DNA from: Chitinophaga pinensis
GTDB taxonomy: Bacteria > Bacteroidota > Bacteroidia > NS11-12g > UBA955
Assembly: GCA_945877575.1 (NCBI GenBank)
Contig: CAMDUE010000003.1
Location: forward strand, 152,174 to 216,173
Length of the DNA: 64,000 nt
Reading direction: 5' to 3'
In this document: piece by piece, positions 4,002 through 44,540 of the stretch
Layout of the letters: the number at the start of each line of letters is the position of its first letter
Position numbering within the stretch: position 1 is the stretch's first letter
The notes under the pieces: model-generated
What the model saw: the letters and a program-made list of their open reading frames with translations, nothing else
Database searches by the model: none
What the model was told of the DNA's origin: nothing
Translations under genes and position numbers: made by a program

Positions 4002-4799
4002 TTAACCCAACTTTAAAGCAACTTCTTTGATAAACGAATCATACATTGCCTGAGAAGAAGCTATAATCTCTTGATCAAAAACGATATCTTCTTTTCCGCG
4101 GAAATCGGTTACCTGCCCTCCCGCTTCTCTAACCAAAAGAATGCCGGCTGCAATGTCCCACGGGCTCAAATTCATTTCAAAAAAGGCGTCAAATCGACCG
4201 CAAGCCACATAAGCCAAATCAATGGCTGCAGAACCCATGCGTCTCAAACCTTGGGTGGAACGCATGAACACGCCCAAGAGCTCAAGGTATTCTGGCATTT
4301 TCCCAAATGTATAATAGGGAAAACCCGTAGCAATGAGACTATTTTTCAGCAAGGCATTATCAGCAACTTGTATGGATTCACCATTCAAATGGGCTCCATT
4401 CCCTCGGGCAGCAGTAAAAGATTCCTTGAGTGCAGGACACTCCACCACAGCCAACTCTGGTTGACCATCCACAAACAAAGCCACACTGATTGAAAACACG
4501 GGCAAGCCATGCAAGAAGTTTGTGGTCCCGTCTAAGGGATCAATGATCCATGTTTGACGGGTTAACACGCGGTTATCAGGTGCACTTTCTTCTCCGATAA
4601 TGGTAGAATCTGGCAATAACGTTTTTAATCCTTTAACCAGCATTTCTTCGCTGGTTTTATCAACGAAACTCACCAACTGATTGGCGGTTTTTTCTTCAAT
4701 TGCTTCTACGCCTACCTTCTGAAGGTGTTGAAGTTGAAAAGCTCCAACCTCCTTGCACAGCTTCAGAACTTCAGGCAGGATATTAGCAAAATTGCTCAT
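4002..4799 (-). CDS. suhB: Inositol monophosphatase family protein
   Basis: A 265-residue Mg2+-dependent phosphatase. The metal-binding residues are visible: GEES at 69-72, DPLDGTTN at 87-94 and WDIAAG at 214-219, which together define the IMPase fold. Likely substrates are inositol-1-phosphate or related sugar phosphates; some family members instead act as 3'-phosphoadenosine phosphatases (CysQ), which cannot be excluded. It overlaps the upstream bacilliredoxin gene by 17 bp on the same strand, implying a shared mRNA. Confidence 0.9.
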   Translation of the reverse strand: MSNFANILPEVLKLCKEVGAFQLQHLQKVGVEAIEEKTANQLVSFVDKTSEEMLVKGLKTLLPDSTIIGEESAPDNRVLTRQTWIIDPLDGTTNFLHGLPVFSISVALFVDGQPELAVVECPALKESFTAARGNGAHLNGESIQVADNALLKNSLIATGFPYYTFGKMPEYLELLGVFMRSTQGLRRMGSAAIDLAYVACGRFDAFFEMNLSPWDIAAGILLVREAGGQVTDFRGKEDIVFDQEIIASSQAMYDSFIKEVALKLG

Positions 4800-7150: not shown

Positions 7151-8107
7151 ATGGCAAGAACCAAGTACTTTTACAATCCCAAAAGTCTCAGCTTCGAAAA
7201 GGTTTCCGAAAACCGTCGCTATATGATTTGGCGAGTGATTGGTTTTTCAGCGCTAATCATTGTTTCTGTTGGACTTACTGCCTTGGTACTTGCACAGTTT
7301 TTGACTGAAAAGTTCGATAATTCTTCTGCTGTTAGTCAATCAAATACCTTGAGCGCCATTCGTTCCTTAGAAAAACAAATTGAATCACTTGACCAACAAA
7401 TTTCTGATTTACAGCAAAAAGACGTTGAAGTGTATCGCGCCATCTACGGAGTTGATCCTCCTAAATTGGAAAAGCTCGAAAAAGCCAACTACAACGCCTT
7501 ATTGAAATTATCTTACGGCGACAACCTCAAAAAACTCCACGTTCGAATGGATCAAATTAAAGCGTTAGTTGCCACGCAAGAAAAATCATACAAACAACTC
7601 GATAAACTCATCAAAAATAGATCGGACTTAGTCAATTCTATTCCCGCAATCATGCCTGTGGCTAATAAAGATTTAAAGCGCATGGCCAGCGGATTTGGTT
7701 ACCGGTTGGATCCATTTTACCATACTTTTTCGTTTCACGGAGGAATGGATTTCACCGCCGAAGTAGGTACTGAAGTATATGCTACGGGCGACGGACGAGT
7801 TGCTAAAGTTTCCCAAGAAACTTGGGGATATGGAAATCATATCATTGTTCAACACGGACACGGATACACCTCTCTTTATGGTCACTTGAGCCGATTTGCG
7901 GTTCGGGCGGGCGAAAAAGTAAAGCGCGGCCAACTCATTGGTTACGTTGGAAATACCGGAAGATCTACCGGCCCTCACCTGCATTACGAAGTTCGCAAAA
8001 ACGACAATCCGCTGAACCCTGCATTCTTCTACAGAAACGACCTCACCGACGAACAATACCAACAAATGCTTGAATTATCTCAACGCGAAGCCAATCGTTT
8101 TGACTAA
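7151..8107 (+). CDS. M23 family metallopeptidase, membrane-anchored
   Basis: A 318-residue envelope protein likely to cleave peptidoglycan cross-links during growth or division. One transmembrane helix spans about residues 26-49, a coiled coil covers about 62-160, and a LytM/M23 domain occupies about 178-290. The zinc ligands are in place: H196 and D200 in FHGGMD, and H276/H278 in GPHLHYE, with YGHL at 243-246. All catalytic positions are intact, so it is probably an active enzyme and not an EnvC-like activator. A TATACTTG element at 7127-7134 may be its -7 box. Confidence 0.9.
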   Translation: MARTKYFYNPKSLSFEKVSENRRYMIWRVIGFSALIIVSVGLTALVLAQFLTEKFDNSSAVSQSNTLSAIRSLEKQIESLDQQISDLQQKDVEVYRAIYGVDPPKLEKLEKANYNALLKLSYGDNLKKLHVRMDQIKALVATQEKSYKQLDKLIKNRSDLVNSIPAIMPVANKDLKRMASGFGYRLDPFYHTFSFHGGMDFTAEVGTEVYATGDGRVAKVSQETWGYGNHIIVQHGHGYTSLYGHLSRFAVRAGEKVKRGQLIGYVGNTGRSTGPHLHYEVRKNDNPLNPAFFYRNDLTDEQYQQMLELSQREANRFD

Positions 8108-22128: not shown

Positions 22129-22486
22129 ATTTTAATTGTTTGTTTGTTGATGTTCAATGATAAACCAAGAAAAATATTTTTGGTTTAACCTTTCTGAAAA
22201 AACTTTAAACCACAATGTATATATTTTCAAAATGTTAAACACTTTTAAAGCACGTTAATACTCGGATTTTTGCCATTCATCTAAAATAAATTTTTTTTTA
22301 TATTAAACATTTGTATAGGGTTTTTAAAGCAAATCTTTAGACAAAATATAATGAATTTCAATGAATTAACCAAACTATTAGATTGAAATTCGTCGAATAA
22401 ATTCCGACTTACACAATATTTAACAATAGATACATATAGTGTATAGACCTAGCCCCAATTTTCATATACTTGTAGTTAAACTGCCT
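22129..22486. other. AT-rich divergent promoter region between proteorhodopsin and TonB receptor
   Basis: This 358-bp stretch has no coding potential; the frame open from 22439 merely extends the TonB-receptor ORF. It is strongly A+T-rich, with a run of nine T residues. TATACTTG at 22465-22472 is a candidate -7 element for the TonB-receptor gene. No exact TAnnTTTG element was found for the rhodopsin gene on the other strand. Any light- or nutrient-responsive sites would be here, but none was identified. Confidence 0.5.
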
Positions 22487-25003
22487 ATGTCAATAATAAA
22501 TTACCACTTTAAAGTTTACTCAACTTTATTGTTGTTCAGCGTTTTTGCGACTTCTTTGTTCGCTCAAAACAAATCACAACAATTTCAATCCGTTTTTGGA
22601 AACATCCTCGACAAAGAAACTCAGCAACCCATCGCCGATGCTGAAGTTTTTTTGGGATTGGGGAAATCAGAAACATCCAACGAGGAAATATCCCTCAAAA
22701 CAAAAACAGACGCAAAAGGAAAATTTACTTTCGAAGAAGTGCCCATTGGCCGTATCAATATAAGTGTTAGCGCGAAAGGGTATCAAATGTTTACCCAAGG
22801 CGGCTACATGCTGTCATCGGGAAAAGAGGCGTCGCTGCAGATTGAAATGGATCAAGAAATTGAGCGCGTAGCTGAAGTGAATATTACCCGTCGCGGGGGA
22901 CATCAAACCAACAACGATGCGGCATTGGTTTCAGCCCGACTATTCACCGTAGATGAGACCGACCGTTTCGCTGGAAGTCGTGGAGACCCAGCTCGTATGG
23001 CATCGAACTTTGCCGGTGTACAAGGCGCTGATGATTCTCGAAACGATATTGTGGTACGTGGGAACTCTCCGTCGGGAATTCTTTGGAGAATGGAAGGCAT
23101 TGACATTCCCAATCCCAACCACTTCGCCATTCCCGGTACTACCGGAGGATCGGTATCCATCATCAACAATAAAATCTTGGGCAACAGCGACTTCTTCACG
23201 GGTGCTTTTCCGGCAGAATACGGAAACAGCATTGCCGGCGCCTTTGACCTCAAACTCAGAGCCGGAAACACCCGAAAACTGGAAGTCAGTTCCCAAGTGG
23301 GCATTTTGGGTTGGGATGTTCTCGCCGAAGGTCCTCTCAATAAAATCAAAGGTTCCTCGTTTTTGGTGACCTACCGCTACTCTACTTTGGCCATGTTTAA
23401 CGCGCTGAAAATCCCCATCGGCACCGATGCCATTCCCAATTATCAAGACGCTTCTTTCCACTTGAAATTCCCATTGAAGAATAATGCCACCTTGTCTTTC
23501 TTCGGGATTGGCGGAAAGAGCAACATTGATATCATGGTTTCTGACAAGTTAGAATCGACCGTAAACCTTTACGGCGATAACGACAGAGATCAGTTGTTCG
23601 GATCTAACATGTATGTTTTGGGATCTTCTTACACCAAACCTTTGACTAAAAAATCCTACTTCAAAGCCGTATTCAGCTACAATCATCAAGTGGTAGATGC
23701 AGACCACCAATTGGTATTTAGAACCATCACCGATACCTTTTATAAGGATGGGGTTAAATTCAACCGTTTCAAAAATGATTCGATTGTCAAGAACTTAGAT
23801 TATAGTTTCAAAATTCAAAGCATAGGTACCCATCTTTTCGTCAACAACAGCGTTTCGCCTCAATTGTCATGGAAATATGGGGTGCAATTTAGACACTTTA
23901 TATATACGTTCCAAGATTCAAACCTAAACATCAATCCGTTATTGTCAAACTATTGGACCTGGTCAACGCGTTGGAATGCTGCCGGAAACGCCAATTTGAT
24001 CATGCCCTATGTGCAGTTCAAGTACAAGTTCAACAAGCAGTTATTAATGGTGGCGGGTATTCAATCGCAAATTTTTGGAATAAACTACACCCCTTTGAAT
24101 GAGATTGCAGGAACCCAGTCCGAATCGCACATGAATGCTGCGTGGTTCTTGCCTCGTTTCTCGTTGCAGTATCGTTTAGATCAGAAAAACAGTTTCAACT
24201 TCGGTACCGGTATTCACGCCCAAACCCAGAGCGAATATCTCTACTTCTACAATCGTCCTGGGCAACCTCAGCCCCACAACCTCGACATGGACATGACCAA
24301 GAGTGCTCATTTTGTTTTGGGATGGGATTACAACATCAAACGCGGGAGCCGCATCAAGATGGAGACCTACTACCAGAATTTGTGGAACATTCCCGTGGGA
24401 GTCAATCCTTCATCGTTCAGTTTAGCCAATACGGGTTCTGGATTCAGCCGTTTCTTCCCCGAGAAGCTTGAAAACAAGGGTGTTGGATATAACTACGGTT
24501 ATGAATTAACGGTTGAGCGTTTTTTCTCTAAGGGATTTTATTACCTTTTCTCGGGAAGTGTCTTCGACGCGAAATATCAAGGCAGCGACGGAGTTTGGAG
24601 AAGTTCAGATTTCAATACCAACTATGCTGCTAACGCTCTATTTGCCAAGGAATACACATTCAAAAACAAAAACATCCTAAACATTGGCGGTAAAGCCACT
24701 TTTGCAGGCGCCCGCCGATTCTCTCCATTTGACACTGCCGCTTCACAAGCTGCAAGAGAATATATCGAGTTAGACGCTGAAAAGAACACCCAACGCTTCG
24801 GAAAGCCCTACATGCGTTTCGACGTTCGTATCTCTTACCGAATCAACGGAAAAGGCATCTCTCACGAAATCGCCTTCGACTTGATCAACGTAACCAACAG
24901 AAAGAACATCTTAAATTACACCTACATCAACGAGCCCCCTTACCGCCGTGAATCTTACCAATTAGGGTTCTTGCCGTTGTTTTATTATAAGATAGAGTTC
25001 TAG
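22487..25003 (+). CDS. TonB-dependent receptor-like outer-membrane protein
   Basis: An 838-residue protein with a signal peptide ending in SLFAQ (about 26 residues). A carboxypeptidase-regulatory-like domain follows at about 34-115 (NILDKETQQPIADAEVFLG), then a TonB plug region at about 145-250 (DIVVRGNSPSGILWRMEGI) and a long beta-barrel ending with a C-terminal Phe (YYKIEF). No SusD partner gene is next to it, so it is probably not a glycan-utilisation pair; the ligand is unknown. The ATG at 22487 is chosen because it starts the signal peptide. The TAG stop is followed after 5 bp by a heptamer repeat array. Confidence 0.88.
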   Translation: MSIINYHFKVYSTLLLFSVFATSLFAQNKSQQFQSVFGNILDKETQQPIADAEVFLGLGKSETSNEEISLKTKTDAKGKFTFEEVPIGRINISVSAKGYQMFTQGGYMLSSGKEASLQIEMDQEIERVAEVNITRRGGHQTNNDAALVSARLFTVDETDRFAGSRGDPARMASNFAGVQGADDSRNDIVVRGNSPSGILWRMEGIDIPNPNHFAIPGTTGGSVSIINNKILGNSDFFTGAFPAEYGNSIAGAFDLKLRAGNTRKLEVSSQVGILGWDVLAEGPLNKIKGSSFLVTYRYSTLAMFNALKIPIGTDAIPNYQDASFHLKFPLKNNATLSFFGIGGKSNIDIMVSDKLESTVNLYGDNDRDQLFGSNMYVLGSSYTKPLTKKSYFKAVFSYNHQVVDADHQLVFRTITDTFYKDGVKFNRFKNDSIVKNLDYSFKIQSIGTHLFVNNSVSPQLSWKYGVQFRHFIYTFQDSNLNINPLLSNYWTWSTRWNAAGNANLIMPYVQFKYKFNKQLLMVAGIQSQIFGINYTPLNEIAGTQSESHMNAAWFLPRFSLQYRLDQKNSFNFGTGIHAQTQSEYLYFYNRPGQPQPHNLDMDMTKSAHFVLGWDYNIKRGSRIKMETYYQNLWNIPVGVNPSSFSLANTGSGFSRFFPEKLENKGVGYNYGYELTVERFFSKGFYYLFSGSVFDAKYQGSDGVWRSSDFNTNYAANALFAKEYTFKNKNILNIGGKATFAGARRFSPFDTAASQAAREYIELDAEKNTQRFGKPYMRFDVRISYRINGKGISHEIAFDLINVTNRKNILNYTYINEPPYRRESYQLGFLPLFYYKIEF

Positions 25004-25008
25004 TTATT

Positions 25009-25173
25009 GGTACATGGTACCGGGTACCGGGTACCGGGTACCGGGGGTCGGGTTTCGGGTTTCGGGTTTCGGGGGTCGCGAGTCGGGATTCGGATGTTCG
25101 AGGTGTATCGACCACGGACCACGGACTATCGACTATCGACCACGGACTACCGACTACGGACTAAGGACTAAAA
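25009..25173. repeat. Heptamer repeat array A (inverted halves, G-quadruplex-capable)
   Basis: About 23 units of 7 bp start 5 bp after the TonB-receptor stop. The left half (25009-25100) reads GGTACCG, then GGTTTCG and GGGGTCG; on the minus strand these are ACCCGGT and ACCCGAA units. The right half (25111-25173) has plus-sense units ACCACGG, ACTATCG and ACTACCG. Between 25022 and 25075 there are eight runs of three or more G spaced by 2-4 bases, a strong G-quadruplex motif on the coding strand. The same unit types appear in blocks near 34.0-34.2 kb. Confidence 0.9.
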
Positions 25174-25244
25174 TCGTCCACAAAAGACAACATGTTAAAA
25201 AGCGTGGTTTAGCGGTTGAATGTTTGGGTTTACTTTCGTAGGGT

Positions 25245-26210
25245 ATGAGAAAACTGTGGTTTTTATCCTTCTTGAGTGTTGCGATGTTCGCTTGCGTGAG
25301 CAAGAAGCAGTATCAGTCTATTCAGCATGAACGCGATTCAATTATTTCGGTTTGTGACCATAAAACTTGGGAGTCCGTTAGATACCGCGATTCGTTGATT
25401 GGTGTGTTGGATGGAGTGAAGTATAAGGCCGAAGAAAACCGATTGAGAGCATCGGCGCTGAGAGATAGCCTACAGATTTGTGCCAATGAGTTGGAAGAAA
25501 ATCGGGTTTACTTGCAGAGCTTGGGTGAAAACATGACCGAAAAGCAGAAGAAAATGGCCAAAGAGTTGGAAGCCAAAAACAAGGCCATCGCCAATAAAGA
25601 ATTGGAATTGAATGATGCTTTGGCCGAGGCCGAGAGAGAGAGAACTCGATTGGTTCAATTGAGGGAAGAATTGGAAAAAGTCAGCAACCGAGTGAAAGAA
25701 CTAGAAGCAGAGCTGAGAAGAAAAGACAGCGCTGTGCTGTTGTTGAAAGAGGCCATCATGAAGGCGCTTGCCGGATTTGAAGAGTTGGATGTAAAAGTGG
25801 AATACAAAAACGGTAAAGTGTACGTGATTCTTCCTGAAAAATTGCTTTTCAAGAGCGGAAGTACATCGGTTGACCCAAGAGGTGTAGAAGCCCTGCAACA
25901 AATATCCAAAGCGCTCAAAGAAAAAGCAGACGTTCAAGTGGCCGTTGAAGGACATACAGACAACATCCCAATGAAGGAGACAGAGAGGATGAAAGATAAT
26001 CTCGATTTATCGGTTTTGAGGGCGACAAGCATAGCGCGAATCATGATTCAATACGGTGTAGGTGCGGAGAGAATTTCATCCATGGGAAGGGGTGAAACCA
26101 TGCCCGTTGCCAGCAATGATACTCCCGAAGGACGTGCGAAAAACAGAAGAACCGAGATCATCTTGACTCCGCAGTTGGATAAAATCTTGGAAATCCTCAA
26201 TACCAATTAA
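25245..26210 (+). CDS. OmpA family lipoprotein with coiled coil
   Basis: A 321-residue envelope lipoprotein: the signal ends at MFACVSKK, with Cys17 as the likely lipidated residue. A long coiled coil spans about residues 60-175, rich in Glu, Lys and Leu. The OmpA peptidoglycan-binding domain occupies about 195-315 (FKSGSTSVDPRGVEAL, VEGHTDNIPM, AKNRRTEIIL). It probably links the outer membrane to peptidoglycan. It follows repeat array A and precedes rlmH by 3 bp. Confidence 0.9.
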   Translation: MRKLWFLSFLSVAMFACVSKKQYQSIQHERDSIISVCDHKTWESVRYRDSLIGVLDGVKYKAEENRLRASALRDSLQICANELEENRVYLQSLGENMTEKQKKMAKELEAKNKAIANKELELNDALAEAERERTRLVQLREELEKVSNRVKELEAELRRKDSAVLLLKEAIMKALAGFEELDVKVEYKNGKVYVILPEKLLFKSGSTSVDPRGVEALQQISKALKEKADVQVAVEGHTDNIPMKETERMKDNLDLSVLRATSIARIMIQYGVGAERISSMGRGETMPVASNDTPEGRAKNRRTEIILTPQLDKILEILNTN

Positions 26211-31711: not shown

Positions 31712-33976
31712 ATGGCTTTTGACATTGATGTAATCAAATCCGTTTATGACCGCATGCCTGAACGAGTAAAGGCAGCGAGAGAGTTGTTGGGTCGCCCATT
31801 GACCTTGTCTGAGAAAATTTTGTACAACCACTTGTGGGAAAATCCTGTAAGTCAAAATTTTAAGCGCGGAGCAGATTACGTTGATTTCGCCCCAGACCGT
31901 GTTGCGATGCAAGATGCAACGGCTCAGATGGCTTTGTTGCAATTCATGCAGGCGGGTCGCCCTCAGGCTGCAGTGCCTTCAACGGTGCATTGCGATCATT
32001 TGATCACGGCTCAAAACGGCGCAGAAGAAGATTTAAACACGGCCAACAACGAGAGCAAGGAAGTTTATGATTTCTTGGCTTCGGTTTCAAACAAATACGG
32101 AATTGGCTTCTGGAAGCCCGGTGCGGGTATCATTCACCAAGTGGTGCTTGAGAATTACGCTTTTCCCGGGGGAATGATGATTGGTACCGATTCTCACACC
32201 GTAAACGCGGGTGGTTTGGGTATGATTGCCATTGGTGTAGGCGGCGCTGACGCTTGCGACGTGATGGCGGGACTTCCTTGGGAGCTAAAGTGGCCTAAAT
32301 TGATTGGTGTAAAATTAACCGGCAAATTGAACGGTTGGACAGCACCCAAAGACGTTATTTTAAAAGTGGCCGGCATTCTTACCGTTAAAGGTGGAACCGG
32401 TGCCATTGTTGAATATTTTGGCGAAGGAGTTACCTCTATGAGCTGCACAGGTAAAGGAACCATTGCAAACATGGGTGCCGAAATTGGAGCTACAACTTCT
32501 ACCTTCGGTTACGACGACAGCATGGAACGCTACTTGCGCTCAACCGGCCGCGCCGATGTGGCTGATTTGGCCAACGGCATTCGTGAACATTTGACCGCTG
32601 ACGCGGACGTTTATGCGAATCCCAAAAAATACTTCGACGAAGTTATTGAAATCAACTTGAATGAATTAGAACCGCATTTGAACGGTCCTTTCACTCCCGA
32701 TTTGGCTACGCCCATATCTAAAATGAAAGAAGTTGCCGCTGCAAATGGCTGGCCCACCAAAGTGGAAGTAGGTTTGATTGGTAGCTGTACCAACTCCTCA
32801 TACGAAGACATTTCAAGAGCGGTTAGTTTGGCAAAACAAGTATCTGAAAAGAACTTGAAAACCAAAGCCGAATTCACCATCACTCCAGGTTCTGAGCAAG
32901 TGCGTTACACCATTGAGCGCGACGGCTTCTTAGAAACCTTTGATAAAATTGGTGCCAAAGTTTTCGCAAACGCATGCGGTCCTTGCATTGGTATGTGGAA
33001 CCGTTTTGGCGCTGAAAAACAAGAGAAAAACACCATCGTTCACTCGTTCAACAGAAACTTCGCAAAGCGTGCCGACGGAAATCCAAATACCTACGCTTTC
33101 GTAGGATCTCCTGAATTGGTTACCGCCTTGGCCATTGCCGGTGATTTGACCTTCAATCCTTTGACCGATACTCTAACCAACGAAAACGGTGAGCAAGTAA
33201 AATTAGATCCTCCAACCGGCGACGAATTGCCAAGCAACGGTTTCGCCGTAGAAGATGCAGGTTACCAAGCACCCGCCGAAGACGGAAGCGGTGTAAAAGT
33301 AGCGGTTGACCCATCAAGCAAGCGTTTGCAATTGTTAGATCCTTTCCAGGCTTGGGAAGGCACTGACTTAAACGGATTAAAATTGTTGATCAAAGCCAAA
33401 GGAAAATGCACCACTGACCACATTTCGATGGCGGGTCCTTGGTTGAAATTCCGCGGACACCTTGACAATATTTCTGACAACATGTTGATTGGTGCGGTGA
33501 ACTTGTTCAACGAAAAAACCAACGAAGTGAAAAACCAATTGACCGGACAATACGGTGCAGTACCTCACACTCAGCGCGCTTACAAAGCAGCGGGTGTAGG
33601 AAGCGTTGTAGTGGGTGACGAAAACTACGGTGAAGGTTCATCACGCGAGCACGCAGCCATGGAGCCTCGTCATTTAGGGGTTCGTGCGGTATTGGTAAAA
33701 TCTTTCGCACGTATCCACGAAACCAACTTGAAAAAGCAAGGTATGTTGGCGTTAACGTTCGCAGACAAATCAGACTACGACAAAATCCAAGAAAACGACA
33801 ACATCGACATCATCGGATTAACCGAGTTCGCCCCAGGCAAGCCCTTGCAAATGGTTCTACACCACGACAACGGCACCTCAGAAACCATCACCGTAAACCA
33901 CAGCTACAACGATCAACAAATCGAGTGGTTCAAGGAAGGTGGGGCGTTGAATATTATTAGGAAATCAGTTAGATAG
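31712..33976 (+). CDS. Aconitate hydratase
   Basis: Interconverts citrate and isocitrate in the TCA cycle using a [4Fe-4S] cluster. The 754 residues fit the mitochondrial-type aconitase. Substrate and cluster motifs are seen: [15 protein letters not shown], the first cluster Cys in [13 protein letters not shown], the other two in [10 protein letters not shown], and a C-terminal swivel domain with [14 protein letters not shown] (catalytic Ser region). The TAG stop is immediately followed by heptamer repeat units of the ACTAGAG type. Confidence 0.95.
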
Positions 33977-34071
33977 ACTAGAGACTAGAGACTAGAGGCT
34001 AGAGACTAGAGACTAGAGACTAGGGGCTAGAGACCCGAAACCCGGTACCCGGCACCTGGTACCTGGTACCC
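33977..34071. repeat. Heptamer repeat array B1 after the aconitase stop
   Basis: Thirteen contiguous 7-bp units follow the TAG stop with no gap: mainly ACTAGAG, with ACTAGGG and GCTAGAG variants, then ACCCGAA, ACCCGGT, ACCCGGC and ACCTGGT. Units change stepwise along the array. ACCCGAA and ACCCGGT are the same as the minus-strand units of array A. It runs directly into a hairpin terminator. Confidence 0.9.
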
Positions 34072-34136
34072 AAATTGGAGATCAGAGAAGAAATAATGGA
34101 AACATTGTTTTAACTTTGGTCTCCAATTTTTTTTAA
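34072..34136 (+). terminator. Hairpin terminator of the aconitase gene
   Basis: A perfect 10-bp stem AAATTGGAGA (34072-34081) pairs with TCTCCAATTT (34120-34129), followed by a run of T residues. The loop is 38 bases, long for an intrinsic terminator. Heptamer arrays border it on both sides. Confidence 0.65.
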
Positions 34137-34139
34137 GCC

Positions 34140-34237
34140 ACCACGGACTATGGACCACCGACCACGGACTATGGACTATGGACCACCGACCATGCCCCCC
34201 CGAAACCCGAAACCCGATACCCGATACCCGATACCCA
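34140..34237. repeat. Heptamer repeat array B2 in the leader of the VOC gene
   Basis: Fourteen contiguous 7-bp units: ACCACGG, ACTATGG and ACCACCG, then AAACCCG and ATACCCG. From 34195 to 34236 there are six C-runs of three or more separated by exactly 4 bases, so the minus strand could form a G-quadruplex. The array ends 5 bp before the VOC ATG. Confidence 0.9.
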
Positions 34238-34242
34238 AAAAT

Positions 34243-34647
34243 ATGAAACAAATCTTCCTCAATTTAGCCGTTACAAATCTTCAAAAATCAATGGACTTTT
34301 ACAGTGCCATGGGATTTGTGAACAACCCTCAATTCTCCGATGACACTGCAAAGTGTATGGTTTGGAGCGAAAATATTTACGTGATGTTGCTGAATCACGA
34401 AAAGTTTTCAAGTTTTACCGATAAGCCCATTGCCGATACCAAGTCAAAAATTGCTGGCCTTTTTTCTTTGTCGATGGACAGTATAGAAGAGGTTCATCAA
34501 ATGATGGATAACGGACTTAAAGCCGGAGGAATTGAACCCAGCGAAATGCGCGATTACGGTTTTATGACCCAAAGAACCATCGAAGATTTTGATGGCCACA
34601 CTTGGGAAATATTCTTCATGGATATGTCGAAATTTCCTACTGAATAA
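34243..34647 (+). CDS. VOC family (glyoxalase/bleomycin-resistance fold) protein
   Basis: A 134-residue metal-binding-fold protein. It begins with the typical MKQIFLNLAVTNLQKSMDFYSAMGF and ends with an FDGHTWEIFFMDMSKFP segment, with two beta-alpha-beta-beta-beta modules between. The substrate is unknown. The longer frame starting at 34150 is made only of heptamer-repeat translation (MDHRPRT...), so ATG 34243 is the start. A heptamer array fills its leader, and another begins 18 bp after its TAA stop. Confidence 0.88.
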   Translation: MKQIFLNLAVTNLQKSMDFYSAMGFVNNPQFSDDTAKCMVWSENIYVMLLNHEKFSSFTDKPIADTKSKIAGLFSLSMDSIEEVHQMMDNGLKAGGIEPSEMRDYGFMTQRTIEDFDGHTWEIFFMDMSKFPTE

Positions 34648-34665
34648 ATTGTGTATGGTCTTCTG

Positions 34666-34770
34666 TAGTCTGTAGTCTGTAGTCGGTAGTCTGTGGACCA
34701 TGGACCATGGACCATGTACCATGGACCATGTACCATGTACCATGTACCATGTACCATGTACCATGTACTA
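34666..34770. repeat. Heptamer repeat array C between two convergent genes
   Basis: Fifteen 7-bp units between the VOC and serine hydrolase genes. Four TAGTCTG-type units (minus-sense ACTACAG) are followed from 34694 by TGGACCA and TGTACCA units (plus-sense ACCATGG and ACCATGT). The last unit, TGTACTA (34764-34770), contains the reverse complement of the serine hydrolase stop codon TAG at 34768-34770. Confidence 0.9.
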
Positions 34771-35964
34771 TCTAAAAGCCTCTTCCACGTAGGTTTTTAC
34801 GCAGTCGTGAACCTTGTCGGTGGCGTCGCCTTTGTTAACGCCGTTTCCAGTGCGGACAATGACGGTGTTTTTTGAGGGGATGACGCAGATGTATTGGCCC
34901 TTGAGTCCTTGGTAGTAATAAAAGGGAGTGGGCGTGCTTGGACTGATCCAGAAGCCGTGTCCGTAGTTGATGTGCTTCCAAGGTTGGGTGGCCAGTGTAA
35001 AGAAGGTGGAGTCTATGATTTGTTGACCGTTCCAATGTCCTTGGTGGAGAGCCAAAAGTCCTAAGCGGCCGAAATCTCTGCTGATGGCGTTGAAGCAGCA
35101 GTAGCCCAATTCTTTGCCGTTTTCGTGGTCGAGTGACCAGTAGGCATCGGCTTCCATGTTGAGGGGCTTCCAGAATTTGTCTGAGAAATACGACGAAATG
35201 GAGTTATAAACCGGTAAGTTATTTGGGGGATTCTGAAGTGCTTGCATCAAACAGAAGGTGAGCAATTGAGTGGCGCCGCTTTGATATTGCCAGTGGGTGC
35301 CGGGTTCGCGCACAAGGGGAACGCCGTGCATTACTCCTTCCACATCGTCTGAATAATAGGCCTTTGCGGTGACTCCCCAAGGAGAAACATAGCTTTCATC
35401 CCAGTCCAGTCCAGCGGTCATGGTGATGAGATGTCGGAGGGTGAGATTTTGTACAAATTGTTCGCTCTCTGACTTTTTGGGGGAGAGCTGAGCGGTTTCA
35501 GTTAACCAGGGTATGAATTTAACGGCTTTCTCATCCCAAGAAGAAATATAACCCTCTTGAATGCTTTTTTGAACCATTAAGGCCATGATGGATTTGGCCA
35601 TTGAGAAACTGTTGGTTCGGTGGCTATCGGAGTAGCCGTTGAAGTATTTTTCGCAAATGAGCGTATCGTTGCGGTAGATGAGGTAGGAAGCTGAATTGGT
35701 TTTCTCGAGTTCATTCACCAACTTTTTGGAGAGTTTATAATCAAATCTGTTGGAGAGTTTGACGATTTTTCCGTTGGTTGTGGAACCTTTTTCAACCGTG
35801 CGAAGGTTAAATCCGTACCAATCAGTGGGGTGAGCGGAGGTCTCTCCTTGGAGATAAGACATTCGGACACCTTTAATAAGATAGCCAAATGGAGACAGTC
35901 TTAGCAAGGAAATCAACAGAATCAATACGGCAATTACCAACGATACTTTAAATGCTTTTCTCAT
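34768..35964 (-). CDS. Beta-lactamase-fold serine hydrolase, membrane-anchored
   Basis: A 398-residue protein with an N-terminal hydrophobic helix (VSLVIAVLILLISLLRLS) acting as signal or anchor. Catalytic SxxK is S121-M-A-K124, followed by LTMTAGLDW and a YxS (YQS) in the second motif. It is therefore a class C beta-lactamase/esterase/DD-peptidase-type enzyme of unknown substrate. The frame is open to 36015, but a TACCTTCG -7-like element lies between that and ATG 35964, so the latter is used. Its stop codon lies inside heptamer array C. Confidence 0.85.
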   Translation of the reverse strand: MRKAFKVSLVIAVLILLISLLRLSPFGYLIKGVRMSYLQGETSAHPTDWYGFNLRTVEKGSTTNGKIVKLSNRFDYKLSKKLVNELEKTNSASYLIYRNDTLICEKYFNGYSDSHRTNSFSMAKSIMALMVQKSIQEGYISSWDEKAVKFIPWLTETAQLSPKKSESEQFVQNLTLRHLITMTAGLDWDESYVSPWGVTAKAYYSDDVEGVMHGVPLVREPGTHWQYQSGATQLLTFCLMQALQNPPNNLPVYNSISSYFSDKFWKPLNMEADAYWSLDHENGKELGYCCFNAISRDFGRLGLLALHQGHWNGQQIIDSTFFTLATQPWKHINYGHGFWISPSTPTPFYYYQGLKGQYICVIPSKNTVIVRTGNGVNKGDATDKVHDCVKTYVEEAFR

Positions 35965-42450: not shown

Positions 42451-43329
42451 ATGAGTATTTTAGTAAACAAAGATTCAAAAATCGTCGTTCAAGGTTTTAC
42501 CGGAAACGAAGGAACATTCCACGCATCTCAAATGATTGAATACGGCACCCAAGTGGTAGGTGGTGTTACCCCAGGTAAAGGTGGAAGCATTCACCTTGAT
42601 CGCCCAGTATTCAATACTGTTGCCGAAGCCGTGCAAGAGGCAGGCGCAAACGTGAGCATCATTTTTGTACCTCCAGCATTTGCTGCAGATGCCATCATGG
42701 AAGCTGCTGACGCTGGAATTGGAGTTATTGTTTGCATCACCGAAGGTATTCCAACCAAAGACATGGTCATGGTAAAAGAATATTTAACCGGTAAAGATTG
42801 TCGTTTAATTGGTCCAAACTGTCCTGGTATCATTACCCCAGGCGAAGCAAAAATAGGTATCATGCCCGGTTTCATTTTCAAAAAAGGAAACATTGGCGTT
42901 GTATCAAAATCAGGTACCCTTACTTATGAGTGCGTTGACCAATTGACCAAACTAGGTCTTGGACAAACAACCGCAATTGGTATTGGTGGAGACCCAATCA
43001 TTGGAACCACCACAAAAGAAGCCATCGAACTATTCATGAACGATCCTGAAACTGAAGGTATTGTTATGATTGGTGAAATTGGTGGTGGTATGGAAGCAGA
43101 AGCTGCACATTGGATCAAAGAACACGGCACAAAGCCAGTAGTTGGCTTTATCGCAGGGCAAACAGCGCCTCCAGGCCGCAGAATGGGTCACGCAGGTGCA
43201 ATTGTTGGCGGAAAAGACGACACTGCAGAAGCAAAAATGGCCATCATGCGCGAGTGCGGCATTCACGTAGTTGAAAGCCCCGCTGAAATCGGACAGCGCA
43301 TGTTTGATGTGATGAATGGTAATTACTAG
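42451..43329 (+). CDS. sucD: Succinate-CoA ligase subunit alpha
   Basis: The alpha subunit of succinyl-CoA synthetase, converting succinyl-CoA to succinate with GTP/ATP formation. The 292 residues include the CoA-binding N-terminal domain ([15 protein letters not shown]) and the phosphorylated His in [16 protein letters not shown]. sucC is not adjacent. A TATTTTCG element at 42426-42433 may be the -7 box. The last residue codon and the TAG stop (43327-43329) lie in the first unit of a heptamer array. Confidence 0.94.
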
Positions 43330-43393
43330 GTACTAGGTACCAGGTACTAGGTACCAGGTAGCAGGTAGCGGGTAGCGGGTGACGGGTGACGGA
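43324..43393. repeat. Heptamer repeat array D1, containing the sucD stop codon
   Basis: Ten contiguous 7-bp units: TACTAGG (43324-43330), TACTAGG, TACCAGG and so on, then TAGCGGG and TGACGGG. The first unit includes the final Tyr codon and TAG stop of sucD. Three GGG runs at 4-base spacing occur near its right end. Confidence 0.9.
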
Positions 43394-43433
43394 GATCGGT
43401 TAACAGATTAAATTTTATACGAATCAAATATAG

Positions 43434-43461
43434 AAAGACCTGAGAAATTGGGTCTTTTTTT
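43434..43461 (+). terminator. Hairpin terminator downstream of sucD
   Basis: A 7-bp stem AAAGACC / GGTCTTT (43434-43440 and 43451-43457) with a 10-base loop is followed by a run of T residues. It lies between arrays D1 and D2. Confidence 0.75.
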
Positions 43462-43463
43462 AT

Positions 43464-43895
43464 GATAGAGACTAGAGACTAGAGACTAGAGACTAGAGGC
43501 TAGGGGCTAGGGGCCAGGGACTAGCGGCCAGGGACCAGCGACCAGCGACCAGGGACCAGCGACCAGGGACCAGGGACCAGGGACCAGGGACCAGGGACCA
43601 GCGACCAGCGACCAGCGACCAGCGACCAGGGACCAGCGACCAGGGGACCAGCTACCAGGGACCAGCTACCAGCTACCAGGGACCAGGGACCAGCTACCAG
43701 CTACCAGCTACCAGCTACTAGAGACCAGGTACTCAGTACTTGGTACTTGGTACTCGCGACCTGGTACTAAAGATTAGGTAATCAGTACTATGTACCAGTT
43801 ACCATTTACCATGTACCAGTTACCATGTACCAGTTACCATGTACCATGTACCAGTTACCATGTACCATGTACCATGGACCATGTACCATGTACTA
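43464..43895. repeat. Heptamer repeat array D2, ending in the lolA stop codon
   Basis: About 61 near-perfect 7-bp units over 432 bp with one visible slip to 8 bp. Units begin as ACTAGAG, then GCTAGGG, ACCAGGG, ACCAGCG and ACCAGCT, and end as ACCATGT and ACCAGTT. Five ACCAGGG units in a row (43562-43596) make a G3N4 G-quadruplex motif. The final unit TGTACTA (43889-43895) contains the complement of the lolA TAG stop. The same TGTACTA unit ends array C in the serine hydrolase stop. Confidence 0.92.
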
Positions 43896-44540
43896 ACGCA
43901 AATCAACAACCTGTACTCCAGGATGCGCCTTGGTGTCCCAGGTAAAAATGGCATCGTTGATGGTTTTGTTGCCTTGAACTTCGCCCAAATCAATGACTAC
44001 GTCTGTGCCGTTTTTATAGTGTTGAATGACTCTTCGGAGTTTGTATGTGCCCTTTTCAACCTCAATTTTGATGTATGCGTATTTTTCTTTGCGCTTCTTG
44101 GGTACCAATTTGATGACGTCTCTTGTGGATTTTCCGCTGGTTACAGGACCTTCGTAATTGGCCTTAAAGCCTTGATTGAAAAAGGTAAAAATTTCTTGTG
44201 GTGACAAATTGTTGGTGCGAGTGCTATAGTCTTCAAGGGTAACTTCTTCGTCTGTGGGATTGTATGACCAGATGGTTTTACCGTCACAGTATACTTCTTG
44301 ATTATCGTATTTTACTTTAAACTTGATTCCTTTTAACCACAAGGAGCCTGAAGCAACCGATGGCTTTCTATTTGCAACCTTTGTAGTTATTTTAAATTCA
44401 GTTTGAATGGTTTTATATGACTTATACAGCTTTTCTACGTTTTGGAGAATAACTTTAGATTTTGCATCCGTTTGAGCATTCACCGTCACGCTCACAATCA
44501 TTGCTAAAACAAGTGCCCAAATTTTTATAATTGATTTCAT
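43893..44540 (-). CDS. lolA: Outer-membrane lipoprotein carrier protein LolA family
   Basis: A 215-residue periplasmic protein with a signal peptide (IWALVLAMIVSVTVNAQ). The rest matches the LolA/LolB-like half-barrel that carries lipoproteins across the periplasm (VASGSLWLKGIKFKVKY, GKTIWSYNPTDEEVTL, VVIDLGEVQGNKTI). It is downstream of ftsK by 23 bp, an arrangement common in Bacteroidota. Its TAG stop is within array D2. Confidence 0.9.
   Translation of the reverse strand: MKSIIKIWALVLAMIVSVTVNAQTDAKSKVILQNVEKLYKSYKTIQTEFKITTKVANRKPSVASGSLWLKGIKFKVKYDNQEVYCDGKTIWSYNPTDEEVTLEDYSTRTNNLSPQEIFTFFNQGFKANYEGPVTSGKSTRDVIKLVPKKRKEKYAYIKIEVEKGTYKLRRVIQHYKNGTDVVIDLGEVQGNKTINDAIFTWDTKAHPGVQVVDLR

Follow-up and report, generated by a model that had tools for sequence, protein, structure and literature searches.

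The locus studied here raises the question of what eight regularly spaced G-tracts directly behind a stop codon are for, and whether the G-tracts themselves are the part that matters. They lie in a stretch of 64,000 nucleotides (the window), and a preliminary description had proposed that they form a G-quadruplex which, in mRNA or DNA, could stall polymerase, protect the 3' end or influence replication. Over-represented heptad repeats are known in bacteria, among them GGGNATC in Xanthomonas and GGGGA(C/T)T in Nostoc (Rehm et al., 2015; PMC4692102). The Xanthomonas and Nostoc repeats are intergenic, follow shortly after stops on the coding strand, are scarce between divergent genes and often occur as inverted pairs (PMC4692102). 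Oligonucleotides of the type (GGGAATC)n fold as a quadruplex in K+, and transcripts end at the G3N4 heptads of Xanthomonas and Nostoc more often than at control repeats (PMC4692102). No function has so far been agreed upon for bacterial heptad repeats, and interest has centred on whether they can form quadruplexes.

Results

The first G-tract begins 19 nt past the TAG stop (25001-25003) of the upstream gene. On the coding strand, GGG occurs at 25022-24, 25029-31, 25036-38, 25050-52, 25057-59 and 25064-66 and GGGGG at 25043-47 and 25071-75, with the loops TACC, TACC, TACC, TC, TTTC, TTTC and TTTC between them. Position, number of runs and loop lengths (4, 4, 4, 2, 4, 4, 4) are exactly as first described. 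The units read, in order, GGGTACC three times, GGGGGTC, GGGTTTC three times and GGGGGTC; hence all eight tracts share one 7-bp phase, because both GGGGG runs are in-register heptads. With eight runs, the segment falls within the definition of a G-quadruplex (at least four runs of at least three G, loops of 1-7), and the canonical G3N4 motif on the coding strand does follow automatically from the 7-bp unit. It is the sole run of at least eight G-tracts in the window when both strands are scanned. The G-runs are roughly the first third of a longer array, which starts at the stop codon itself, is detected by TRF with a period of 7 bp and continues in heptads that lack GGG (GGATGTT, GGACCAC, GGACTAT, GGACTAC), until it ends about 70 bp ahead of the downstream gene. 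A scan of 25000-25244 for intrinsic terminators (GC-rich hairpin plus T-run) found none. Rfam gave no match above gathering score anywhere in the window, and a known RNA family was rejected as the identity of the array. The upstream gene had been called a TonB receptor; the product is indeed outer-membrane receptor-like, but Pfam gives only a carboxypeptidase-regulatory-like domain. Features of the window are collected in Table 1.

Table 1. Heptad arrays of the window and the genes flanking the array with eight G-tracts (window positions).
Feature	Position	Strand	Remark
Quadruplex-capable part, eight G-tracts	25022..25075	+	from sequence; unique in window
Whole 7-bp-period array, from upstream stop codon	25000..25176	+	~25105-25170 is GGACCAC/GGACTAT/GGACTAC, no GGG
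Upstream gene, outer-membrane receptor-like protein	22439..25003	+	N-terminal carboxypeptidase-regulatory-like domain (Pfam)
Downstream gene, OmpA-family protein	25245..26210	+	
Two heptad arrays	33968-34074, 34143-34248		intrinsic-terminator-like hairpin with long T-run between them (~34070-34138)
Heptad array	34648..34781		between convergent genes
Two heptad arrays	43313-43400, 43456-43899		between convergent genes; intrinsic terminator AAGACC..GGTCTTTTTTT between them

Heptad arrays are a property of the whole genome to which the window belongs (G000; 2.5 Mb in 30 contigs), of which 1.25 Mb, about half, was analysed. Scored as segments that over 28 bp match themselves by 75% or more when shifted by a fixed lag, 848 kb of G000 contained 72 arrays of period 7 and only 0-3 for each of the periods 3-6 and 8-13, with echoes at lags 14 and 21 as expected from period 7. 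The analysed 1.25 Mb holds 82 heptad arrays totalling 9.2 kb, which extrapolates to about 165 in the whole genome. Arrays occupy 26 of 56 convergent intergenic regions (46%), compared to 19 of 255 tandem (7.5%) and 7 of 142 divergent ones (5%; convergent versus tandem, p = 4e-11), where regions of at least 40 bp were counted from a simple dicodon gene caller, which may have misclassified a few junctions and which had taken some arrays as coding when they were not masked. Arrays start at stop codons, and in tandem regions they adjoin the upstream stop and not the downstream start. The commonest doubled heptads are GGGTTTC, GGTAGTT, GGTACCA, GGGTACC, ACTAGAG, GGGTATC and GGACTAT. Contig C5 carries one terminator sequence (AACCCGGGGCGAAAGTTCCGGGTTTTTTTG) twice, each time with similar arrays, at about 42.1-42.3 and 45.1-45.4 kb, a local duplication 3 kb apart that includes arrays.

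The closest of the 14 genomes of the genus is a Bacteroidia MAG (G011; isolate gw_gwSRR_metabat.15, JAMNXP01), which shares 93% identity with G000 in the OmpA protein and a median of 91% over 404 reciprocal best hits. In this sister species the orthologous junction carries a 7-bp array of GGTGATC and GGTGGTC units without any GGG run, and the roughly 70 bp ahead of the OmpA gene are recognisably conserved. Altogether G011 has 50 arrays in 0.95 Mb, with a similar distribution over convergent (22/42, 52%), tandem (14/185, 7.6%) and divergent regions (4/102, 4%). Taking orthologous junctions whose genes are oriented alike, G011 has an array at 5 of the 6 places where G000 has one, the 25-kb site included, versus 2 of 340 where G000 has none (p = 3e-9; within convergent pairs, p = 0.002).

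The heptads of G011 differ from those of G000 (for example GGTGATC and GGCTGAC), and judged from sequence the heptad words are nearly species-private. GGGTWYC occurs three times in a row at 117 places in G000 and nowhere in 56 relatives, triple GGTGATC 121 times in G011 and never in G000, and triples of the G000-type word GGTASYW 94 times in G000 versus 3 times in G011. The few sister arrays with G000-type words (GGTACTA, GGTAGTT; G011:C3:55081-55108 and C1:8603-8623) may be relics of a shared vocabulary or the result of later transfer. A further G011 array (C2:44684-44851) has some nine units of TTTAGGG, a G3N4 word that coincides by chance with the plant telomere repeat, with GGTGATC units on its other arm. 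A further reading is that a DNA- or RNA-binding protein recognises the arrays, for nucleoid or REP/BIME-like organisation. In its favour, the one feature common to both vocabularies is GG at a fixed place of the heptad, which is partly circular since the phase was anchored on GG. The unit sequences are otherwise almost wholly different between the species, a step of 7 bp covers two thirds of a helical turn and would set successive sites on different sides, and no candidate protein came to light; we consider such a role very improbable.

Sampled stretches of three other congeners (G006, G009, G010) contained no arrays. Since most sampled congeners lack them, the arrays are dispensable at the level of the genus. 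At the 25-kb junction, G010 and G013 have a simple stem-loop, CCAATCTCCGTTTC...AACGGAGATTGG, directly after the stop, and where G000 has the 43.3-43.9 kb array, array-free congeners have a classical bidirectional terminator. At three junctions one species has an array, while in the other the gene calls give the convergent genes a 4-bp overlap of their stops (G000:C1:14373-14507 against G011:C1:413474; G000:C3 at 98.9 and 114.8 kb of the sample against G011:C2 at 71.4 and 44.7 kb). These pairs are candidate empty sites for the birth or loss of an array. A mobile element was rejected as explanation, given that the compared array junctions keep their flanking genes and that the empty sites are overlapping convergent stops.

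Quadruplex capacity follows the words and not the place. In the 1.25 Mb of G000, 66 of 70 four-tract G-quadruplex motifs lie inside heptad arrays, hence it is the heptad vocabulary that gives this genome its quadruplex capacity. Such a motif is present in 40 of 82 arrays in G000 versus 3 of 50 in G011 (p = 1e-7). Among arrays adjacent to stops in G000, 20 carry the motif on the sense and 15 on the antisense strand (p = 0.5). We looked for a specific constraint on the third G and did not see it; its unit-to-unit conservation is 0.92 versus 0.88 for the third base of non-quadruplex heptads. RNA folding with a quadruplex term does place a quadruplex in the 25-kb array, but the whole-array fold reaches -66.8 kcal/mol without and -67.0 kcal/mol with it, so that the duplex hairpin is practically equal in energy.

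A quadruplex may nevertheless form in the array. The eight tracts stand in perfect register, an energy model with a quadruplex term places one in 23 of 81 arrays, and the comparable G3N4 heptads of Xanthomonas and Nostoc behave accordingly in K+ and at transcript ends (PMC4692102). As the working part of the array, in the sense of the polymerase stalling or 3'-end protection proposed initially, the quadruplex is unlikely. The sequence comparison indicates that it is not the part kept between the species, because the capacity differs between them, there is no strand preference and the orthologous array lacks GGG. The quadruplex as conserved element was rejected on the same grounds, and a G-quadruplex would be an optional alternative fold in those arrays that happen to use GGG heptads.

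A feature that both species do keep is polarity. At the array ends next to a stop, G exceeds C on the sense strand in 54 of 65 cases in G000 and in 41 of 51 in G011. Arrays are thus G-rich first and C-rich later, which gives the two ends of a convergent region opposite arms, one rich in G and one rich in C. Convergent array regions are predicted to fold into long imperfect hairpins, and they do so better than the same regions with permuted heptads (median z -2.1 in G000, -2.3 in G011) and better than dinucleotide shuffles (median z -2.7 and -3.6), while convergent regions without arrays fold well too in G000 (z -2.4). In both species, the two halves of an array share fewer exact inverted words than do halves re-paired among arrays (frequency at k = 7, own versus re-paired halves, 0.012 vs 0.064 and 0.027 vs 0.097). 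Templating by perfect inverted repeats inside arrays was therefore rejected. Cells may eliminate perfect palindromes, or short-read assembly may drop them; two of the sampled contigs, C2 and C5, terminate within or close to arrays.

Intrinsic terminators are found at 6 of 46 convergent junctions with arrays versus 27 of 47 without (p = 9e-6), and at 9 of 11 in array-free congeners. Where at least 40 bp of array-free sequence is required, the difference shrinks to 5/9 vs 17/28 in G000 and 0/7 vs 10/19 in G011 (pooled p = 0.09), and a clean rule that the array replaces the terminator was rejected. The exclusivity of array and terminator mostly reflects lack of space and supports a hairpin role weakly; the arrays mostly fill the junction, leaving nothing else to end transcription. 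Some arrays coexist with an intrinsic terminator where space remains, for example between the arrays at 43.3-43.9 kb. There, an intrinsic-terminator-like hairpin with a long T-run lies at 43432-43462, between two arrays of one intergenic region.

The main rival to a hairpin function is that the arrays are tolerated, neutral repeats. Heptad slippage, perhaps a property of replication or repair in this lineage, would spread repeats that persist only in DNA free of coding sequence and promoters alike, namely behind convergent stops. We regard this as possible, and several observations fit it: arrays avoid genes and divergent regions, words change fast while the place persists, the other sampled congeners have no arrays, and ordinary terminators coexist with arrays at some junctions. 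Neutral repeats have no strand, however, and neither the excess of G over C toward the neighbouring gene in both species nor the better folding compared to heptad-permuted controls is expected of them.

Discussion

We show here that two sister species have in common the place of the arrays, their 7-bp period, their G-rich-then-C-rich polarity and a hairpin-forming order of the units, and that they share neither the unit sequences nor the quadruplex capacity. The best explanation, to which we give a probability of about one half on these sequence comparisons, is that the loci carry 3'-end arrays of 7-bp units in which place, period, polarity and hairpin order are conserved, while the array would fold into hairpins at the mRNA end and its units are turned over. 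Most likely the arrays are 3'-end hairpins, either bidirectional terminators or protectors of the mRNA end, with fast turnover of the units. This role is favoured because place, period, polarity and better-than-control folding are kept in both species. The mRNA 3' end, to which the preliminary description had pointed, was the right place to look; the quadruplex it named there is not supported as the functional feature.

Upon transcription, the arrays would fold into long imperfect hairpins with stems interrupted about once per heptad. Such hairpins would set the 3' end of an mRNA or shield it, serving both directions where genes converge and standing in for ordinary intrinsic terminators. Gain and replacement of units by slippage and by copying between arrays would give each species its own heptad vocabulary.

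The closest described kind are the G-rich heptad repeats of Xanthomonas and Nostoc. Both sets are mostly intergenic 7-bp G3N4 units that lie near stops, are rare between divergent genes, often form inverted pairs, are dispersed over the genome and are kept at the same junctions between two related species (Rehm et al., 2015). The 25-kb array consists of tandem 7-bp units with uninterrupted GGG (GGGTACC, GGGTTTC, GGGGGTC); none of its units fits GGGNATC or GGGGAYT, and GGGTATC, found elsewhere in G000, fits GGGNATC. The differences are considerable. Only about half of the G000 arrays are quadruplex-capable, the heptads of G000 are far more varied, and the strongest class of sites is convergent (46%), compared to 16% convergent for the repeats of Rehm et al. 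(2015). In addition, 83% of the G-rich repeats of Xcc stay G-rich in Xac (PMC4692102), whereas the close relative G011 keeps the site and not the G-tracts, with no G-rich repeat at the 25-kb junction.

Other repeats are more distant. TAACTGA repeats of Beggiatoaceae, with related heptamers in Gramella, Elizabethkingia and others (PMC4679880), are likewise intergenic direct repeats of 7 bp with strain-specific histories and heptamer assemblages in Bacteroidetes. TAACTGA is one fixed word and mostly lies just upstream of start codons, in contrast to the varied words behind stops seen here, and it is absent from the units of the 25-kb array and from the frequent heptads of G000 and G011. The STRR heptanucleotides of cyanobacteria (Calothrix), as cited in PMC4692102, are likened to our arrays solely as tandem heptanucleotides. 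Further heptad arrays turned up among 80 Bacteroidota loci that we surveyed, of which some contain masked N stretches. A Chitinophagaceae MAG (L222) has two inverted array pairs at 4553-4725 and 7613-7759 (GGCAATA / TATTGCC; TGGTCAG / CTGACCA-like), to judge from the sequence the same architecture in other words in a distant member of the Bacteroidota. The REP/BIME elements of enterobacteria are hairpins behind genes as well, found in tandem and convergent but not in divergent regions. REP elements are palindromes of about 30-40 bp with a fixed sequence, unlike arrays of 7-bp units, and the analogy is functional only.

Within a limited literature search, what seems new is a comparison of two sisters in which place and period persist while words and quadruplex change. 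Sister genomes with and without G-tracts at the same place and period make the quadruplex separable from the array, and they provide a natural test of what selection preserves, namely period, hairpin and 3' end, and not the G-quadruplex. A stronger version, which we hold only tentatively and find rather doubtful, is that arrays of 7-bp units are bidirectional hairpin terminators set by period and position instead of sequence, with a vocabulary rewritten across dispersed sites within the divergence of sister species. On this version, units would have to be actively copied or homogenised between sites, and selection would see nothing but the 7-bp architecture.
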